Below, one piece after another: positions 3,003-23,922 of a stretch of 64,000 nt of DNA. Below the pieces are notes generated by a model. The model saw only the letters and a program-made list of their open reading frames with translations, made no database searches and was not told where the DNA came from. The DNA comes from a virus. Both the position numbers and the translations under genes were made by a program. Positions within the stretch are counted from its first letter, which is position 1. Each line of letters starts with the position of its first letter. The DNA is taken from the IMG/VR virus record IMGVR_UViG_3300006903_000002, positions 1 to 64,000 of that record, one strand, 5' to 3'.

Positions 3003-3215
3003 ATGGCAGAAGAAAATAACGCATCGTTTCCGTTCTTAGCAATTCTTGGACTTATCTTCATCACACTCAAATTGCTTGGCAAGATTGAGTGGAGTTGGTG
3101 GTGGGTGACACTGCCGTTGTGGGGACCGCCTGTGCTACTTGTAGTGGTCGCATTGGCCGCTCTTGTGGTGGGTGCAGTGGTGTGGGTGATTGTGTGGGCG
3201 TGGGAGAATCGGTAA
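3003..3215 (+). CDS. Small membrane protein, two TM segments
   Basis: Protein of 70 aa starting two bases after the previous stop, with AAGGAGC just upstream. Two hydrophobic stretches (about residues 9-24 and 31-66, the second long enough to span twice) are linked by a tryptophan-rich segment (WSWWWV). The C-terminus is positively charged. It is probably an inner-membrane peptide and could modify the host envelope. No family recognised. Confidence 0.65.
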   Translation: MAEENNASFPFLAILGLIFITLKLLGKIEWSWWWVTLPLWGPPVLLVVVALAALVVGAVVWVIVWAWENR

Positions 3216-3361
3216 TCAAGTGGATTAGTCAACGACTGTGCGTCTTCCACAAAACGGTGGATGCAAAGGAGTTGATGCTTAAGTCGGACGGGAAACAGCG
3301 ACTATATGTCGAGTGCCCCGTCTGCGGATGGGAGTCAGAAGGATGGACCCTGAAACAATAA
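3200..3361 (+). CDS. Small CxxC protein
   Basis: About 53 aa from GTG 3200, overlapping the previous gene by 16 bases; GTG 3194 is an alternative start. The C-terminal CPVCGWES looks like half of a zinc ribbon. The frame is open further upstream but only in the shadow of the membrane gene. Function unknown. Confidence 0.5.
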   Translation: MGESVIKWISQRLCVFHKTVDAKELMLKSDGKQRLYVECPVCGWESEGWTLKQ

Positions 3362-3945
3362 AAAAGCATATTGAAGAGTTGGCAGACGCAATCGACAACT
3401 TTACCCCCGAAAAAGGGAAAGCCTACGATTCGTATACGCAGTTTGATTCGAGCGCGCACCTTGATAAGGTGGAGAGGTTGAAACAAATCGCTACGGATGA
3501 GGGATACACATATACGGAAAATGCCCTTGCGGTTGCGAATGACGTTTTCAAGCTGTCTCCGATTGAGGCTTTCAAATTTATGCTGCGGGTGGAGCATACA
3601 GGCGGCGCGATGTTCAGAACGAAAAGCGGCAACATGAAGATGCTGTGGATTAATAAGGATGTTACAACGGACAGACAGCATGCAATCATCCTTGTCCACG
3701 AACTTGCACACGCGCTTTGCACAACGGACACACTTTTTGGAAACCTCTCTCAAAAGAGTCATGAGGCAATTGCCTATGGGGTGACACACATTTTCGGCAA
3801 AGCGTGGGACTTACCATACTACATGGATTCGTTGTTGTTTGCGCTTTACGTTCAGCGGGTGAAGGGGAAGGACTTGAGAGATGCGTCGGAAACCATCGTC
3901 AACATTAGTGGACGAATCCTCTCCGCACTTGACACCGGAAAGTGA
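3343..3945 (+). CDS. HExxH zinc metallopeptidase-like protein
   Basis: Protein of 200 aa. The motif HELAH at 119-123 is a classic zincin signature, and the later helix has glutamate E140 in SHEAIA as a candidate third ligand. The N-terminus is helical and charged. ATG 3343 has GGGAG upstream. The next gene, overlapping by 65 bases, encodes an XRE-type helix-turn-helix. Peptidase plus XRE regulator recalls ImmA/ImmR pairs, in which the peptidase cleaves the repressor. Here the order is peptidase first, and the link is inference. It could also act on host proteins. Confidence 0.75.
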   Translation: MDPETIKKHIEELADAIDNFTPEKGKAYDSYTQFDSSAHLDKVERLKQIATDEGYTYTENALAVANDVFKLSPIEAFKFMLRVEHTGGAMFRTKSGNMKMLWINKDVTTDRQHAIILVHELAHALCTTDTLFGNLSQKSHEAIAYGVTHIFGKAWDLPYYMDSLLFALYVQRVKGKDLRDASETIVNISGRILSALDTGK

Positions 3946-12605: not shown

Positions 12606-13035
12606 CGGCAGACAGTTTAGAATCAGCTTTAGGCATATCGTTCCTAACAACTTCGTTCCACGGCAGGGAGCTACGGAAGCGCAGTTTGACAGGTATTATG
12701 AGGAGTGTGACAGGCTTGCAGAACGCCTTCGCTTTTATTCCACTACTGTGAGCTTCGACATCTACAGGATTGAGGCACTTTCAGAATGTTTCATTCAGGA
12801 GGTGATTGAGGGAGTGGCCATCACGAGGGATGCAGACCCAATTGGTGCGGCATTCACAAACTACAAAGACCACTTCGACAAGGAGAAGGGCAGGAAGATT
12901 TCGCTCACTCGCGCACTTCAGCATCTTTTCAAGGACCCAACAATCCGTAAGGAGTTTTGGGACGCATACCACAACAGGTTCCCACAACCAATTCCGAAGG
13001 AGGAAGCAGATGTCGTGGGAAGACAAGAGGATTGA
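12586..13035 (+). CDS. Hypothetical protein
   Basis: Protein of 149 aa overlapping neighbours on both sides. Begins as a strand pair (RVQLTDGRQFRISFRHIV) with DGRQF reminiscent of small beta barrels, then helices (FDRYYEECDRLAERLRFY). No catalytic motif. It directly precedes the NAD+ salvage genes and could be part of that transcript. Confidence 0.6.
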   Translation: MRVQLTDGRQFRISFRHIVPNNFVPRQGATEAQFDRYYEECDRLAERLRFYSTTVSFDIYRIEALSECFIQEVIEGVAITRDADPIGAAFTNYKDHFDKEKGRKISLTRALQHLFKDPTIRKEFWDAYHNRFPQPIPKEEADVVGRQED

Positions 13036-13549
13036 AAGTTTGCCGTCTGTTGGGGTGATTGTGGCGAGGTTCCAAGCACCCCAACTTACAAACGGCCATG
13101 AAGACTTCATCACGCACGTCATGAAGCACAATGACTATACAATTGTCTTCCTTGGGACATGCCCGGTTGATGAGAGGAATCCGCTGCCCTTTGCCTTCAG
13201 GAGGGCGAGTGTGGAGTCATTCATGAGAGGACTCATCATCCTGCCCTTTGAAGATATGCCAAACGAAGATGAGAAGTGGACAAGGAAGTTGGAGCAGACA
13301 GTTGGCAACATTTTTCCGTTTGACAAATATAACATAACATTCTACGGGGGAAGAGATTCAACCTTCCTGAAGGCATACAAAGAGTTTGGGAAGTTTAGGC
13401 GGGAAGAAGTTGCGGGAGGTATTGAAGTGAGTGCGACGAAGGTGCGGCAAACGATTTTGAAGGACCCTTCATACACTTTGGAATTTCGCGCAGGCACTAT
13501 CTATGGCGTGAATCTTGCATTAGGAGGAAAAGATGTTAAGTTCAGATAA
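13010..13549 (+). CDS. NMN adenylyltransferase (NadM/NadR-like)
   Basis: Protein of 179 aa. The nucleotidyltransferase fold is shown by VGVIVARFQAPQLTNGHEDFI, where the N-G-H corresponds to the H-x-G-H nucleotide-binding turn of this superfamily, and by the late GGIEVSATKVRQTIL, corresponding to the I-S-x-T-x-x-R signature. It should join nicotinamide mononucleotide and ATP to make NAD+. The next gene makes NMN, so the two form a complete salvage route from nicotinamide, the arrangement known as NARP2 in phages that restore NAD+ after defence systems destroy it. AGGAAG precedes ATG 13010. Confidence 0.85.
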   Translation: MSWEDKRIESLPSVGVIVARFQAPQLTNGHEDFITHVMKHNDYTIVFLGTCPVDERNPLPFAFRRASVESFMRGLIILPFEDMPNEDEKWTRKLEQTVGNIFPFDKYNITFYGGRDSTFLKAYKEFGKFRREEVAGGIEVSATKVRQTILKDPSYTLEFRAGTIYGVNLALGGKDVKFR

Positions 13550-14933
13550 CCCCATCCTCAAAACAGACTCCTACAAAGTTAGCCATTACAAGCAATATCC
13601 GCCCCTCACGACGAATGTTTATAGCTACTTTGAGAGTAGAGGGGGCGACTACAAAGAGACAACCTTCTTTGGCCTCCAATACATCATCAAAAAGCATTTG
13701 CTGACTCCCGTGGATGAAGGCCATGTGCACCAAGCGCAGCAGATTGCGAAGGACCATTTCGGCACGGACTTCGTGAACGTGGATGGATGGACGCGAATCA
13801 TCAAACATCATGAGGGAAGGTTGCCGCTTTTCATTAAGGCAGTGCCAGAGGGATTGAGTGTGCCGACTGGAAATGTGTTGATGACTGTTGAGAACACGGA
13901 TTCGGAATTGCCGTGGCTTACCAACTATGTCGAAACCATTTTGAGTCAGGTGTGGTATCCCACGACAGTCGCCACCCTCAGTCGGGAGGTGAAGAAGGTG
14001 ATTCAACATTATTTGGATTTGACAGGGAATGACCCAAGTGAATTCAAATTGCACGATTTCGGCTACCGTGGGAGCACATCACATGAGAGTGCAGGCATCG
14101 GAGGGGTTGCGCATCTTGTCAACTTCAGGGGCACCGACACACTCTCTTCCATCACCTTCGCGCGGGATTACTACAATTGCAAGATGGGTGGTTTCAGTAT
14201 CCCGGCAGCGGAACATTCTACAATTACATCGTGGGGGAAGAAACATGAGATTGACGCCTTCCGTAATATGCTCGAACAGTATCCGAAGGGTCTTGTGGCG
14301 GTTGTTAGCGACTCCTACAATATCTTCGACGCTGCCGACATTAAGTGGGGAGTCGAATTACATGACAAAGTTATGGAGAGGGATGGATGTGTAGTGATTC
14401 GCCCCGACTCAGGTTATCCGCCCCACGTCACCTTGAAGTTGCTTGAAATCCTTGAGAAGCGTTTTGGAGTAACTTACAACAAAAAGGGTTACAAAGTCCT
14501 TGACCCGCATGTGCGCATTATTCAGGGAGACGGCTGTGACCCACAGATGATTAGAGAGATTCTGAAAGTGATGGCCTTCCATTATTGGAGTGCGGACAAC
14601 ATTGCATTCGGTATGGGGGGCGGGCTACTTCAAAAGGTCAATCGTGACACCTGTAAGTTTGCCTTCAAGTGCTCCTCAGTCATTGTGGACGGGAAAGAGC
14701 GGGATGTGTGGAAGGACCCTATCACAGACCCAAACAAGTGGTCAAAGCGCGGACGACTCGCGCTCATCAACCATGCGCAGCATGGGTATATGACGCTTCC
14801 TGTGATGGAGTTGCATTCTGAGATTGGAGACGCATACGCGGGAATGCAGGATGTGTTGCACCCGGTTTATAAGAATGGACAGTTGTTGATTGATGAGTCA
14901 CTTGATGTCGTTAGACAGAGGGCACGATTATGA
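13533..14933 (+). CDS. nadV: Nicotinamide phosphoribosyltransferase
   Basis: Protein of 466 aa, the usual NAMPT length. Recognised by NPILKTDSYKVSHYKQYP near the N-terminus, FGLQYIIKKHL, KLHDFGYRG (nicotinamide/phosphate site region), GTDT, AAEHSTI with the catalytic histidine, VSDSYNIF, VIRPDSG and GDGCD. It converts nicotinamide and PRPP to NMN in the cytoplasm. It overlaps the adenylyltransferase by 17 bases, so the two are translated together. With the NADAR and SLOG genes elsewhere in the window this suggests active management of NAD+ and ADP-ribose. Confidence 0.95.
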   Translation: MLSSDNPILKTDSYKVSHYKQYPPLTTNVYSYFESRGGDYKETTFFGLQYIIKKHLLTPVDEGHVHQAQQIAKDHFGTDFVNVDGWTRIIKHHEGRLPLFIKAVPEGLSVPTGNVLMTVENTDSELPWLTNYVETILSQVWYPTTVATLSREVKKVIQHYLDLTGNDPSEFKLHDFGYRGSTSHESAGIGGVAHLVNFRGTDTLSSITFARDYYNCKMGGFSIPAAEHSTITSWGKKHEIDAFRNMLEQYPKGLVAVVSDSYNIFDAADIKWGVELHDKVMERDGCVVIRPDSGYPPHVTLKLLEILEKRFGVTYNKKGYKVLDPHVRIIQGDGCDPQMIREILKVMAFHYWSADNIAFGMGGGLLQKVNRDTCKFAFKCSSVIVDGKERDVWKDPITDPNKWSKRGRLALINHAQHGYMTLPVMELHSEIGDAYAGMQDVLHPVYKNGQLLIDESLDVVRQRARL

Positions 14934-15516: not shown

Positions 15517-16011
15517 ATGCGACAATTTTTGAAGGTCCTTAGTGGTTCTATTGTCTTTTTGTTCATTGTTACGTTCATTGTTACTGTGGAGCCTGTCCGC
15601 GCGCAAGCAGGCTGTACCATGCGCCACATCACTCTCGGCCCTCCCGACCAAGGACTGATAGTTCAAGCTGTGCCAAGTGGCGTATCGTGGGAAATCTTCT
15701 CTCTCGGAACCCTCTATTATGCCTCTTCAGCAGGCAGTGGGAATAGGACTGTCATCCTACGGGCACGTTTGCCAATAGGAGACGTTTATGCCTTCAGTCC
15801 GAATCCATTGAAACCAAGTCCGGGGACGACTGTAGGATTGTCGTGGTCTGCCGGGATGGGACCGGCTATTGCATCTGACGTAGGTGTGGGCGGTTGGCCC
15901 ATTGGCCTACAATTGAGTGCGGGTCACATTCTTGAGACGGTTGTAGAGAATCGTCATTTTCTTGATTCGTTTGGCACGTCAATTCTTGTGGTGCGGGAGT
16001 GTCCACAATAA
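15517..16011 (+). CDS. Secreted or membrane-anchored protein
   Basis: Protein of 164 aa with a clear signal sequence: basic start, hydrophobic core (VLSGSIVFLFIVTFIVTV) and a likely cleavage after VRAQA near residue 31. The mature part is glycine- and serine-rich and strand-like, with cysteines near both ends (GCTMRH, VRECP) that may form a disulfide. It would act outside the cytoplasmic membrane. No family recognised. Confidence 0.65.
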   Translation: MRQFLKVLSGSIVFLFIVTFIVTVEPVRAQAGCTMRHITLGPPDQGLIVQAVPSGVSWEIFSLGTLYYASSAGSGNRTVILRARLPIGDVYAFSPNPLKPSPGTTVGLSWSAGMGPAIASDVGVGGWPIGLQLSAGHILETVVENRHFLDSFGTSILVVRECPQ

Positions 16012-17042
16012 TGAGCAGTTGGCACACATATCCGACCATCTTCAACCTAGGCCATAGGGCAGTGAAGGACCTTCTCACCGTCCCACATTATATTGAGGAG
16101 AAGATTGACGGCTCGCAATTTTCCTTCGGTGTCTTCGATTCAGGAGACAAACAAGACGGAAAGCCAGTTTATGAGTTGAGGATTAGGTCAAAAGGTTGTG
16201 TCATGAACGTTGACGCACCCGAAAAGATGTTCTCGAAGGCGGCTGAAAGTGTGAAGGAGAGGTTTCATCTTTTGCATCCCGAGTGGACGTATCGGGGTGA
16301 ATATCTTGCTAAACCACATCACAACACACTCGTCTACGACCGCATTCCGAAGGGGCACATCATATTGTTTGATGTGAGCACAAATGAGGAGGAATGGCTG
16401 AGTCCTCAGGACATGGCAGCAGAGGCTATGAGAATTGGACTAGAGTATGTGCCGTGCCTATATATGGGGGGCCGTGCACAACCATTAGTCAATTATGAGA
16501 AGATTAGAGAATTACTGAACACCGTAAGTGTGTTGGGTGGGCAAAAAATAGAAGGTATTGTGGTGAAGCAACTTGGTCCACAATACTTGTATGGCCTCGA
16601 CCACAAGACGCTCATGGGCAAGTTCGTAAGTGAGCAATTCAAAGAGACTCATGCGGGGGTGTGGAAGGAAGCAAATCCAAATAAAAAGGACATCATCGAC
16701 AAATTGATTGAGGGTCTTGCGACTCCTGCAAGGTGGGCAAAGAGCGTGCAGCACCTTCGAGAGGCAGGACGTTTGGAAAATAGCCCGCGTGACATTAGTA
16801 TGTTGATTAAAGAGACTCAAGCTGATATTCTAAAAGAAGAGGAAGAGAATATCAAAGACGCCTTATGGAACTACGCGAAGGGGCATGTCATGCGCGGATG
16901 TGTGAGAGGGTTGCCAGAATATTATAAGGAGCTTTTGTTAAAGGAGCAGTTTAATGACAAAGATGCAACAGAATGTAGTGAAGGGACTGGAAAGAACGAA
17001 GAAGTTGCTCAAGACGAAGGGGTGGACGCAGGGGATATATGA
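16011..17042 (+). CDS. RNA ligase (Rnl2-like)
   Basis: Protein of 343 aa. Nucleotidyltransferase motif I is EEKIDGSQ with the adenylated lysine at residue 31, as near the N-terminus as in T4 Rnl2. Motifs IIIa (WTYRGEYL, IILFDV), IV (EGIVVKQ) and V (LMGKFV) follow in order. It should seal 5'-phosphate to 3'-hydroxyl RNA ends. Phage ligases of this kind repair nicked tRNAs. In this genome it is also a candidate for joining the halves of the permuted tRNA at 22 kb, although that is speculative. ATG overlaps the previous stop. Confidence 0.85.
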   Translation: MSSWHTYPTIFNLGHRAVKDLLTVPHYIEEKIDGSQFSFGVFDSGDKQDGKPVYELRIRSKGCVMNVDAPEKMFSKAAESVKERFHLLHPEWTYRGEYLAKPHHNTLVYDRIPKGHIILFDVSTNEEEWLSPQDMAAEAMRIGLEYVPCLYMGGRAQPLVNYEKIRELLNTVSVLGGQKIEGIVVKQLGPQYLYGLDHKTLMGKFVSEQFKETHAGVWKEANPNKKDIIDKLIEGLATPARWAKSVQHLREAGRLENSPRDISMLIKETQADILKEEEENIKDALWNYAKGHVMRGCVRGLPEYYKELLLKEQFNDKDATECSEGTGKNEEVAQDEGVDAGDI

Positions 17043-21370: not shown

Positions 21371-21569
21371 GGAAGAGTCCTTCAAGTTGGGTGTGCATCT
21401 TGGGCTATTCGGCTTTGCCGTAGCGTGTGGACTCTACAACCTCGGCACATGCCTACATAGCAGGAAAAATGTGAGCGCAGTCATCATCTATGTTGGGTTG
21501 GCTGCCTACGAAGTGTCCCAAATGAACGGTCATTGGAGTGCGATGCGTGATAGACTCATTCAAGGGTGA
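21360..21569 (+). CDS. Small membrane protein
   Basis: About 69 aa from TTG 21360, overlapping the previous stop; the true start is uncertain. Hydrophobic segments at about 15-30 (LFGFAVACGLYNLG) and 41-55 (SAVIIYVGLAAYE). Function unknown. Confidence 0.45.
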   Translation: MENKEESFKLGVHLGLFGFAVACGLYNLGTCLHSRKNVSAVIIYVGLAAYEVSQMNGHWSAMRDRLIQG

Positions 21570-21972
21570 ACATGCGTTCCTCTCCAATTTTTATCCAACT
21601 AAAATTGTTGTTGACGGTATTGTGTATCGTTCTGTTGAACATGCCTATCAAGCTGCTAAAACAACTGACGAGAAGGTTAAAAGGGTCATTCGTGCGAAGC
21701 CTTATGCAAGCGAAGCGAAGAGACTTGGCGATACCGTTCAGAAGCGCGAGGATTGGGACAATATCAAGATTGGAGTGATGAAGGAATTGCTTGATTTGAA
21801 GTTCGCAGAGGGCACAGAGCTTGCAGAGCAACTTCTTTCGACCGGAGATGAGGAACTTGCTGAGGGAAATTGGTGGGGAGACACTTTTTGGGGAGTCTGC
21901 AAAGGGAAGGGTGAAAACCACCTTGGCAAACTTCTAATGGACCGCAGGAAGGTTCTAAAGAGTCGGCAATAG
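21547..21972 (+). CDS. NADAR-domain ADP-ribose-type N-glycosidase
   Basis: Protein of 141 aa from GTG 21547 with GGAG upstream. Matches the NADAR/YbiA fold: FLSNFYP near the N-terminus, then SVEHAYQAAKT and a C-terminal NWWGDTFWGVCKGKGENHLGKLLM. NADAR proteins hydrolyse N-glycosidic bonds of riboflavin intermediates or remove ADP-ribose from guanine in DNA, so phage versions can counter ADP-ribosylating toxins. It fits with the NAD+ salvage pair and SLOG gene here. The antitoxin-like role is inference. Confidence 0.88.
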   Translation: MIDSFKGEHAFLSNFYPTKIVVDGIVYRSVEHAYQAAKTTDEKVKRVIRAKPYASEAKRLGDTVQKREDWDNIKIGVMKELLDLKFAEGTELAEQLLSTGDEELAEGNWWGDTFWGVCKGKGENHLGKLLMDRRKVLKSRQ

Positions 21973-22082
21973 GCTGAGGCTCAGACTCAAGCTCAGACAG
22001 TAGGAGTCGTTACCTGCTGATGAGGCTTAGGTTTTTGCCGAAGGCTTAACACACAAGGGCAGCAAATTTGGGATGATTTTAG

Positions 22083-22124
22083 ATTAAATCGTGCGCGCGG
22101 GTTCAAATCCTGCACCCGGCTCCA
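22083..22124 (+). tRNA. 3' half of permuted tRNA
   Basis: Anticodon-stem remnant TCGT, short variable region, T arm GCGGG-TTCAAAT-CCTGC, acceptor strand ACCCGGC, discriminator T and encoded CCA. No compatible 5' strand GCCGGGT lies upstream; the compatible GCCGAGT lies 108 bases downstream. Confidence 0.75.
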
Positions 22125-22231
22125 CATTCGAGCGTTAGCTGTTGAGACGTTAAACAGCTTGGCGGACGCAGCGGACAGCAATATTCGCTACCCTCCCGGC
22201 TAACAGGTTCTCCGTTAATGAACCTGAGTTT

Positions 22232-22266
22232 GCCGAGTTAGCTCAGTGGTAGAGCAGCGACTTTAA
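22232..22266 (+). tRNA. 5' half of permuted tRNA
   Basis: Acceptor strand GCCGAGT, TA, D arm GCTC-AGTGGTA-GAGC, then GCGACTTTAA entering an anticodon loop. Nothing downstream completes an anticodon stem, T arm or acceptor; the missing parts are in the upstream 3' half. Confidence 0.75.
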
Positions 22267-22315
22267 GTTCAACTCAAAATCATGCTTCGATTTGCTTGGA
22301 AGTTGTGTGGAAACG

Positions 22316-22376
22316 GGGCAATAGGTTGTGAATTTATACTTCACAGAAACGTGGCAAACTCGTCAACCTATTGCCC
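22316..22376 (+). terminator. Long hairpin after permuted tRNA
   Basis: A 13-bp perfect stem (22316-22328 with 22364-22376) followed by TTTA, with an inner 5-bp hairpin GTGAA/TTCAC. It probably ends or protects the permuted tRNA transcript. The next gene starts 9 bases later. Confidence 0.55.
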
Positions 22377-22384
22377 TTTAATAT

Positions 22385-22747
22385 ATGGTTCAAACTCCTA
22401 GGAGAATAATTGTGGGCGTTAGGCGTGTGATTAATGGCACCCCGCAATTCGACAAAGTCTCTTTATGTGAGAGTTGTAGGAACAGTCAGCGACTGAAAGG
22501 CGAGCGTTATGAGCATGACATCGTTCATTGTCACGCACTGGACAAACGCATTACATTTAAGGTGATTGAGTGCGACCGTTACGACGATGCAAATCATCCA
22601 AGTTTGTTTGAGATGAGACTGATTGCGTGGAGGTTTGCGAGCGATTTGAAGGGCAATCCAATCGGTTTCAAAAACCCAAAACAGTTTGCAGATTTGAAAA
22701 GGGCAGGAAAGGTGGAGGAAAAAGAGGGGGATAATGATGATTACTAG
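22385..22747 (+). CDS. Cysteine-containing hypothetical protein
   Basis: Protein of 120 aa. CESC and HCHA with further cysteine ECDRYDD suggest metal binding (C-x2-C...C-x-H). The C-terminus is charged (AGKVEEKEGDNDDY). ATG 22385 lies just after the long hairpin. Function unknown. Confidence 0.6.
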   Translation: MVQTPRRIIVGVRRVINGTPQFDKVSLCESCRNSQRLKGERYEHDIVHCHALDKRITFKVIECDRYDDANHPSLFEMRLIAWRFASDLKGNPIGFKNPKQFADLKRAGKVEEKEGDNDDY

Positions 22748-23202: not shown

Positions 23203-23922
23203 ATGACCGATATAACATTCTTGTTAGACAGAAGTGGCTCGATGCAATCCGTCAAAAGTGCGACGATTGAGAGTGTGAACAAGTTCATCGAAGACCAACA
23301 GAAGGTGGAGGAGGGAGCGACTTTCCAACTCATTCAATTCGACGACCAATATGAACCGCAGGACGCTACCGATTTGAAGGATGCGAAGTTGTTGGATGGC
23401 ACTTCATATTTGCCGAGGGGGATGACGGCGTATTTGGATGCTCTCGGTAAGACGATTGCAAACGTGAGGCAGCGGCAGGTTGATGCTCCTTCCGACAAGG
23501 TAATCATTGTGGTTATGACTGATGGTCTTGAGAATGCCTCAAAAGAGTTCAAGCGTGCGGACGTGAAGGAGTCAATTGAGAATATGCAGAACCTCTTCCA
23601 ATGGACTTTCATCTTTTTGGGAGCGAACATGGATGCCGTTACGGAGGCAGCGACGATGGGAATTCCAATGACCACATCCATTTCGTATGCGGCCACGGCG
23701 GGAGGGACAGCCTCAGCCACAAGCTCAACATCAAATTTGGTCGCACAGTTACGTTCAACAGGCACGACCGAAGGCTACACGAATGTGATGCGGAATGAGG
23801 CTCTTGGCAAGGAAGCGTGGAGCAATCTTGGGGACAACAATACGTCAACACAAGCCAACGTGCTGACTCCCGAAGAGTTTGCAAAATTGGTGCAAAATAA
23901 TGCTAATTCCGGCAAACCCTAG
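23203..23922 (+). CDS. VWA-domain protein
   Basis: Protein of 239 aa. A complete von Willebrand factor A fold: MIDAS DRSGS at 9-13 after a hydrophobic strand (ITFLLD), a threonine in GMTAYLDALG, and the MTDGLENAS strand supplying the third metal ligand. The C-terminal 80 residues are Ser/Thr/Ala-rich. VWA proteins often partner MoxR ATPases such as the one at 704-2122, here separated by 21 kb. Likely a cytoplasmic metal-dependent protein-binding module; target unknown. Confidence 0.87.
   Translation: MTDITFLLDRSGSMQSVKSATIESVNKFIEDQQKVEEGATFQLIQFDDQYEPQDATDLKDAKLLDGTSYLPRGMTAYLDALGKTIANVRQRQVDAPSDKVIIVVMTDGLENASKEFKRADVKESIENMQNLFQWTFIFLGANMDAVTEAATMGIPMTTSISYAATAGGTASATSSTSNLVAQLRSTGTTEGYTNVMRNEALGKEAWSNLGDNNTSTQANVLTPEEFAKLVQNNANSGKP

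Follow-up and report, generated by a model that had tools for sequence, protein, structure and literature searches.

A probable YrlA-like RNA with circularly permuted tRNA topology in a phage genome, and putative relatives in phage tRNA arrays

Introduction

Why does a phage genome carry the 3′ half of a tRNA upstream of a 5′ half, and is such a locus a tRNA gene at all? The question is raised by one short region of the window, by which we mean the whole stretch of 64,000 nt of viral DNA that was analysed. Circularly permuted tRNA genes are known in red and green algae and a few archaea (Soma 2014, cited in PMC10085705), and in the open-licence papers that we searched none was reported from a phage. 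A sequence-only reading of the locus had proposed a permuted tRNA gene whose maturation route may be new. YrlA, the class of bacterial Y RNAs that mimics tRNA, has its arms in this order too and is not spliced; besides bacteria, it has reportedly been found in phages.

Results

All window features with coordinates in the RNA lie on the + strand. The 3′ half (22083–22124), with a T arm and CCA, lies upstream of the 5′ half (22232–22260), which has a canonical D arm, and every element that the sequence-only reading had placed in this swapped order was found at the coordinates given there. The 3′ half includes its side of the anticodon stem with an extension (TTAAA TCGT, 22084–22092, TCGT at 22089–22092), which pairs with 22257–22266 around a bulged C22261. 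It continues with variable GCGC (22093–22096), a T arm of canonical stem and loop (GCGGG TTCAAAT CCTGC, 22097–22113), where the Rfam tmRNA model matches with 12.6 and 7.4 bits, and the 3′ acceptor strand with discriminator and encoded CCA (22114–22124; ACCCGGC at 22114–22120, T CCA at 22121–22124). The 5′ half reads GCCGAGT-TA-GCTCAGTGGTAGAGC-A-GCGA. It comprises the 5′ acceptor strand (GCCGAGT, 22232–22238), a canonical D arm with the invariant residues (GCTC AGTGGTA GAGC, 22241–22255), A at 22256 and GCGA at 22257–22260, the last running on into the 5′ side of the extended anticodon stem (GCGA C TTTAA, 22257–22266; paired with 22084–22092). As had been claimed, the acceptor strands match at 6 of 7 positions, with A5 and C68 mismatched. 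The anticodon stem has 4 bp followed by the bulged C, and a second A-C mismatch is found at 31:39.

In the window, 18 ordinary tRNAs were called by ARAGORN and 14 by Rfam, none at the permuted locus. Neither program called a tRNA from either half, in agreement with the claim that both halves are without a usable partner on the normal side; a 'Trp' tRNA that ARAGORN built from the 3′ half and upstream sequence when introns were allowed was poor and was rejected as spurious. When the halves were joined artificially, ARAGORN accepted the product as a tRNA. The anticodon depends on the splice site, as foreseen: according to the junction, loops for Asn, Lys, Ile, Leu and ochre are all possible and none is fixed. 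The circularly permuted tRNA topology in the window is confirmed as real and non-random.

Beyond the anticodon stem and its TTTAA/TTAAA extension, the outer flanks are complementary in nested order, through AAAATCAT (22276–22283) with ATGATTTT (22073–22080), ATTTGCT (22290–22296) with AGCAAAT (22061–22067), and, in the outer helix, TTGTGTG (22303–22309) with CACACAA (22050–22056), which starts 10 nt upstream of CAGCAA, as is most usual in relatives. The duplex energy of these flanks was matched by 0.04% of dinucleotide shuffles (p 4e-4), which bears out the nested pairing described earlier; for 40-nt flanks it was matched in 16/1000 shuffles. Because 3.7% of same-geometry segment pairs in the window genome reached the same energy, flank pairing is not decisive alone. 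Taken by itself it is suggestive, and the whole arrangement of halves and flanks is strong evidence. Folding of 21973–22400 gave extensive structure. On one point the sequence-only reading is corrected: the halves are separated by 107 nt (22125–22231), with hairpins of their own by folding (GCTGTT/AACAGC, CAGGTTC/GAACCTG and GTTAGC/GCTAAC). Downstream, folding gave a long hairpin, GGGCAATAGGTTG ... CAACCTATTGCCC then TTTAATAT (22316–22377), which is probably the transcript end, the terminator-like T run being weak.

Other phages were scanned for an orphan 3′ half followed by an orphan 5′ half, with acceptor pairing of at least 6/7 and anticodon-stem pairing of at least 4/5. Over the first 1.5 Mb of loci only the window matched. 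With tRNA-rich phage loci among them, 2.58 Mb gave 11 such pairs against 0.31 expected by chance, and 9 with 7/7 acceptors against 0.03 expected; a few of the weaker pairs may be chance. Scans of ~5 Mb gave more than 30 RNAs of permuted topology in other phages, including Enterococcus, Vibrio and Synechococcus isolates, and further cases came both from already-positive phages and from others. Judged from these sequences, permuted tRNA-like RNAs are a recurrent, unannotated putative class in unrelated phages. Searches through NADAR neighbours, DUF7873, DNA polymerase and terminase gave no close relatives of the window phage. The window DNA matched INPHARED only in D arms; when four permuted loci were run against it by distant BLAST, ordinary tRNAs in the neighbourhood were the most that came up. 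Two other approaches were set aside: a specific acceptor pattern yielded only a tandem Thr array, and R1, a covariance model of rotated ordinary tRNAs, responded mainly to tandem tRNA pairs and cannot bridge the 107-nt insert of the window. Among the phages surveyed, one (G005; L173, L311, L480) has a Ro60/TROVE gene besides ~25 tRNAs, and its permuted tRNA-like RNAs number at least two, ~20 kb apart, and another locus (L183) holds a group I intron and a ROOL RNA (1871–2055 and 3148–3722) inside one phage tRNA array.

BLAST with one relative, L215, matched Enterococcus phages H1, EF1, VRE9_1 and VRE9_3, Vibrio phages 6E35.1a, D482 and F86, and Synechococcus phage BUCT-ZZ01. At these loci the annotation shows a gap or a spurious ORF, and most of them sit within tRNA arrays; in the Enterococcus phages (L471, L474, L475, L476) the RNA is unannotated between tRNA genes, and VRE9_1 and VRE9_3 carry spurious antisense ORFs over it. 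Ten homologues, from Enterococcus, Vibrio and Synechococcus phages and two IMG/VR contigs, were aligned. All of them have CAGCAA, their T loops are almost invariant, and outer stem and acceptor hairpin are retained despite differing sequence (GCTGAG/TTCAGT in L215, GCAGAG/TTCTGT in L220). The anticodon-loop region of EF1 is 2 nt longer than that of H1, and the D arm is degenerate in a Vibrio homologue.

An outer helix followed by CAGCAA is common to most permuted relatives. Alignment of flanks gives the shared architecture (T)AAGAC-NNN, 0–3 nt, CAGCAA, AT-rich linker, T arm, acceptor hairpin, D arm, short linker, NNNGTCTT. The helix starts 9–12 nt before CAGCAA in 31/31 curated cases, exactly 10 in 20 of them, a table that is descriptive since the helix was part of the selection; across these cases the inner helix pairs vary (C-G, A-T, T-A, G-C) and pairing is kept. 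A less biased test used the 131 listed AGAC..CAGCAA..T-arm matches, most of them from the GTDB scan: at least 25 have a partner helix scoring at least 18 downstream, against 2 with swapped partners. In the window, CAGCAA stands in the upstream flank at 22060–22065, and the same 6-mer at the same helix distance is found in ~30 other permuted phage RNAs. It lies at the modal distance from CACACAA, but it is preceded by GGG and reads GGGCAGCAA, without the ACAGCAA form. As it can also pair with 22290–22296, its equivalence to the motif of the relatives is uncertain. From its sequence, the window RNA is likely, if unproven, to belong to the CAGCAA group. Compared with most relatives it has an acceptor-end insert, the encoded CCA and a longer flank stem; the gap between acceptor strands is 0–12 nt in almost all pairs of the 2.58-Mb scan and mostly 2–18 nt in the relatives, so that the 107 nt of the window are exceptional.

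The motif and the topology also occur apart. In Clostridia MAG contigs (L357, L375, L394, L397, L420, L469) and Brachyspira MAGs (L360, L409), the outer helix and CAGCAA surround a T-arm hairpin but no D arm, often followed by a second unit, AAGGTGC..CAGCAA..GCACCTT, just upstream of a Shine-Dalgarno sequence and a small ORF; these loci look like a wider unannotated RNA family. Conversely, permuted tRNA-like RNAs without CAGCAA were seen at L082, L331 (G007), L239, L202 and L263. L082a and a second RNA ~270 nt downstream have TTACATGCTTAT and AGTTTCGC in common, and L239 and L202 both have GGCATRAAAYTGA..ATTAAACG after the 5′ half. The four records of these CAGCAA-less RNAs are without an RNA ligase match.

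The window phage encodes an ATP-dependent RNA ligase of the Rnl type (15999–17042, + strand; PF09414 8e-12, phrog_548 RNA ligase 4e-26). Among non-fragment records, a PF09414/PF09511 RNA ligase was found in 8/8 with the ACAGCAA and T-arm signature against 6/30 others, the window phage (G000) with its ligase being counted among the 30 because GGGCAGCAA is not matched by this pattern. The hand-computed hypergeometric p is ~6e-5, for phages that are phylogenetically non-independent and with one match (G002) below the family cut-off. The reversed pattern gave zero matches. RtcB was absent from all 40 records and the tRNA splicing endonuclease (PF01974) from 13, including the window phage; the sequence-only reading had remarked that bacteria lack this enzyme. 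At the window locus there is no bulge-helix-bulge motif with symmetric 3-nt bulges. Rfam group I and II models had no match in 21700–22700 at E up to 10; a standard model could miss a permuted core, and inspection by eye for group I cores, R/S elements and hammerheads found none, so the view that no group I core is present stands.

The window phage also carries an NAD salvage cluster (12806–14933 and 21538–21972) of NAMPT, a probable NMNAT with no Pfam hit and a NADAR protein. Such genes are seen in phages that counter NAD-depleting defences. About 0.9 kb downstream of the RNA lies a vWA-domain protein (phrog_7371, 23203–23922). Ro60 has a vWA domain too; as a candidate Ro60 this protein was rejected, with no recognisable similarity. 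Ro60/TROVE (PF05731) is absent from the window phage and present in only three of the 40 records (G005, G016, G027); it is absent from 7/8 ACAGCAA records, G016 being the exception.

The Rfam model of YrlA (RF02553) aligns to several permuted relatives at 23–35 bits, in several over its full length. None reaches the gathering cut-off of 69 bits (best 35.1), and the window record has no match at E 1e-3. Its matches fall on permuted loci found independently (G008:41629, 44335; G005:41947, 43524; G025:111456; G030:203548, 204110; G002:3943). Since below-cut-off matches also occur in 7/14 control genomes, weight is given to the position at these loci and to full-length alignment, not to score.

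Discussion

We consider that 22050–22309 probably encodes a structured non-coding RNA with a circularly permuted tRNA-like core and a YrlA-like build, part of a wider unannotated set in phage tRNA arrays. YrlA has a reported tRNA-like domain (Chen et al. 2014, cited in PMC7790460), and both it and the window RNA run from outer stem through T arm, acceptor-like hairpin and D arm back to outer stem, with a stem of the transcript ends in place of the anticodon end and no splicing needed. By inspection, the window flanks have a YrlA-like geometry: a 4-bp anticodon-like stem, a 4-nt variable loop, and internal loops of 3 nt then 5 nt on the 5′ side. Given this arm order, the alignments of relatives and the flank geometry, a YrlA-like tRNA mimic is in our view the most likely identity of the window RNA, outside formal Y RNA membership: RF02553 has no match in the window record, the acceptor-like stem, closed by a short loop in YrlA, here bears the 107-nt insert, and a Ro60 gene is lacking. 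The encoded CCA and the stem sequences also differ from YrlA. The permuted relatives differ from YrlA in having CAGCAA and often an anticodon hairpin.

In such an RNA, the complementary 5′ and 3′ flanks of the transcript would pair and extend the anticodon stem outward, and the T arm, acceptor stem and D arm would hang on this flank stem. The intervening segment may close the acceptor end, giving an RNA that looks tRNA-like to tRNA-binding enzymes and is not a decoding tRNA. Its likely role would be that of a decoy or adaptor for tRNA-handling enzymes in infection, for example by occupying host anticodon nucleases or by presenting a tRNA-like RNA to the phage RNA ligase and repair machinery, with the outer stem and internal loops as a possible protein-binding handle. 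Across the ten homologues, outer stem and CAGCAA are retained and it is the anticodon loop and D arm that vary, as one would sooner expect of a finished tRNA mimic than of a pre-tRNA; the pattern is the opposite of that expected for an intron-bearing decoding tRNA. Recurrence well beyond the chance expectation, the signature of outer helix and CAGCAA, and the ordinary tRNAs that most of these phages have for the same anticodons also speak for this reading. Several points tell against the mimic. Several of the 31 relatives have perfect CUNNNAA anticodon hairpins, more than a non-decoding mimic seems to need, and the 107-nt insert and encoded CCA of the window suit tRNA end-processing. Moreover, the window lacks the ACAGCAA form, its CAGCAA can take part in a helix, and the searches brought up no close homologue of it.

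The main rival, a genuine circularly permuted pre-tRNA, is possible and clearly the less probable reading of the locus. On this view the paired flanks form an intron surrounding the anticodon stem. An as yet unnamed nuclease, or the RNA itself, would do the cutting and the phage RNA ligase the sealing; RNase P and 3′ processing would then break the circle within the intervening segment, releasing a decoding tRNA. The window offers halves with an encoded CCA and joinable anticodon loops. Perfect flank anticodon hairpins are found in relatives, for Tyr GTA (L323), Asn GTT (L258) and Thr (L363, L373, L413), each of which would complete a tRNA if joined at 26/27, 28/29 or 29/30, and, likewise completing the tRNA, for Phe and Leu in L408 and L343. 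These hairpins and the co-occurrence of the ACAGCAA and T-arm signature with RNA ligase keep splicing alive as a minority possibility. The ligase link fits a mimic too: RNA repair is carried by the phages that face tRNA-cutting defences (reviewed in PMC7824862), and according to a suggestion by Hughes et al. (PMC7790460) the tRNA-like domain of YrlA may inhibit an anticodon nuclease. Against splicing, it would throw away CAGCAA and the outer stem, yet these are among the best-conserved parts; anticodon-loop length differs between close Enterococcus phages, and in 4/10 examined RNAs no U33 loop was possible at any junction tried. Acceptor loops of 2–4 nt give RNase P and the 3′ cleavage step little space, the window has its two A-C mismatches (5:68, 31:39), isotypes would be redundant with the ordinary tRNAs that these phages mostly have for the same anticodons, and neither splicing endonuclease nor RtcB was found.

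The permuted tRNA genes of algae and archaea share with the window locus the 3′ half before the 5′ half, the matching acceptor strands and the complementary outer flanks. They are unlike it in that the window has no bulge-helix-bulge, no EndA-type enzyme and a mature tRNA that is only putative, and unlike the relatives in that these have variable break points and, in several, no possible canonical anticodon loop. A new maturation route, as first proposed, is neither shown nor needed, given that unspliced YrlA has the same arm order. We think it rather unlikely that phages of many lineages carry true circularly permuted tRNA genes sharing a small intron (outer helix and CAGCAA) whose removal is completed by a phage RNA ligase; bacterial tRNAs would then have a splicing route that needs neither EndA nor group I/II ribozymes.

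It is improbable that the locus is a relic, in which a pair of tRNA genes, or a tandem duplicate, was stripped of its outer halves and left a functionless 3′ half before a 5′ half. The two A-C mismatches would suit decay and a tandem duplicate would account for the matching acceptors; flank pairing, the extensive folding and the recurrence of the same architecture and shared motif in unrelated phages argue against it. Least probable by far is that the locus is a tmRNA or a group I/II intron in permuted form. In its favour, the known two-piece tmRNA genes likewise set an acceptor domain from two permuted pieces on a long helix, the tmRNA model aligns to the window T arm and the flanks total ~228 nt. 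Against it, the 12.6 bits of the tmRNA model stand below a cut-off of 47, the D arm is canonical, the alanine identity pair G3-U70 is missing (acceptor GCCGAGT/ACCCGGC), no tag frame convinces, and group I/II intron models had no match at E up to 10.

Permuted RNAs of this kind escape current tRNA finders and lie in unannotated stretches of phage tRNA arrays or beneath spurious ORF calls. Cultivated members (Enterococcus H1, EF1, VRE9_1 and VRE9_3, Vibrio 6E35.1a and F86, Synechococcus BUCT-ZZ01) make both the mimic and the splicing readings testable. If the RNAs are spliced permuted tRNAs, they would represent an undescribed tRNA splicing route in bacteria and phages. If they are tRNA mimics, the idea of a tRNA-mimicking Y RNA would extend to phages that encode no Ro60, and would point to a role in host-phage conflict over tRNA cleavage and repair, in which the co-occurrence with RNA ligase would make testable sense.
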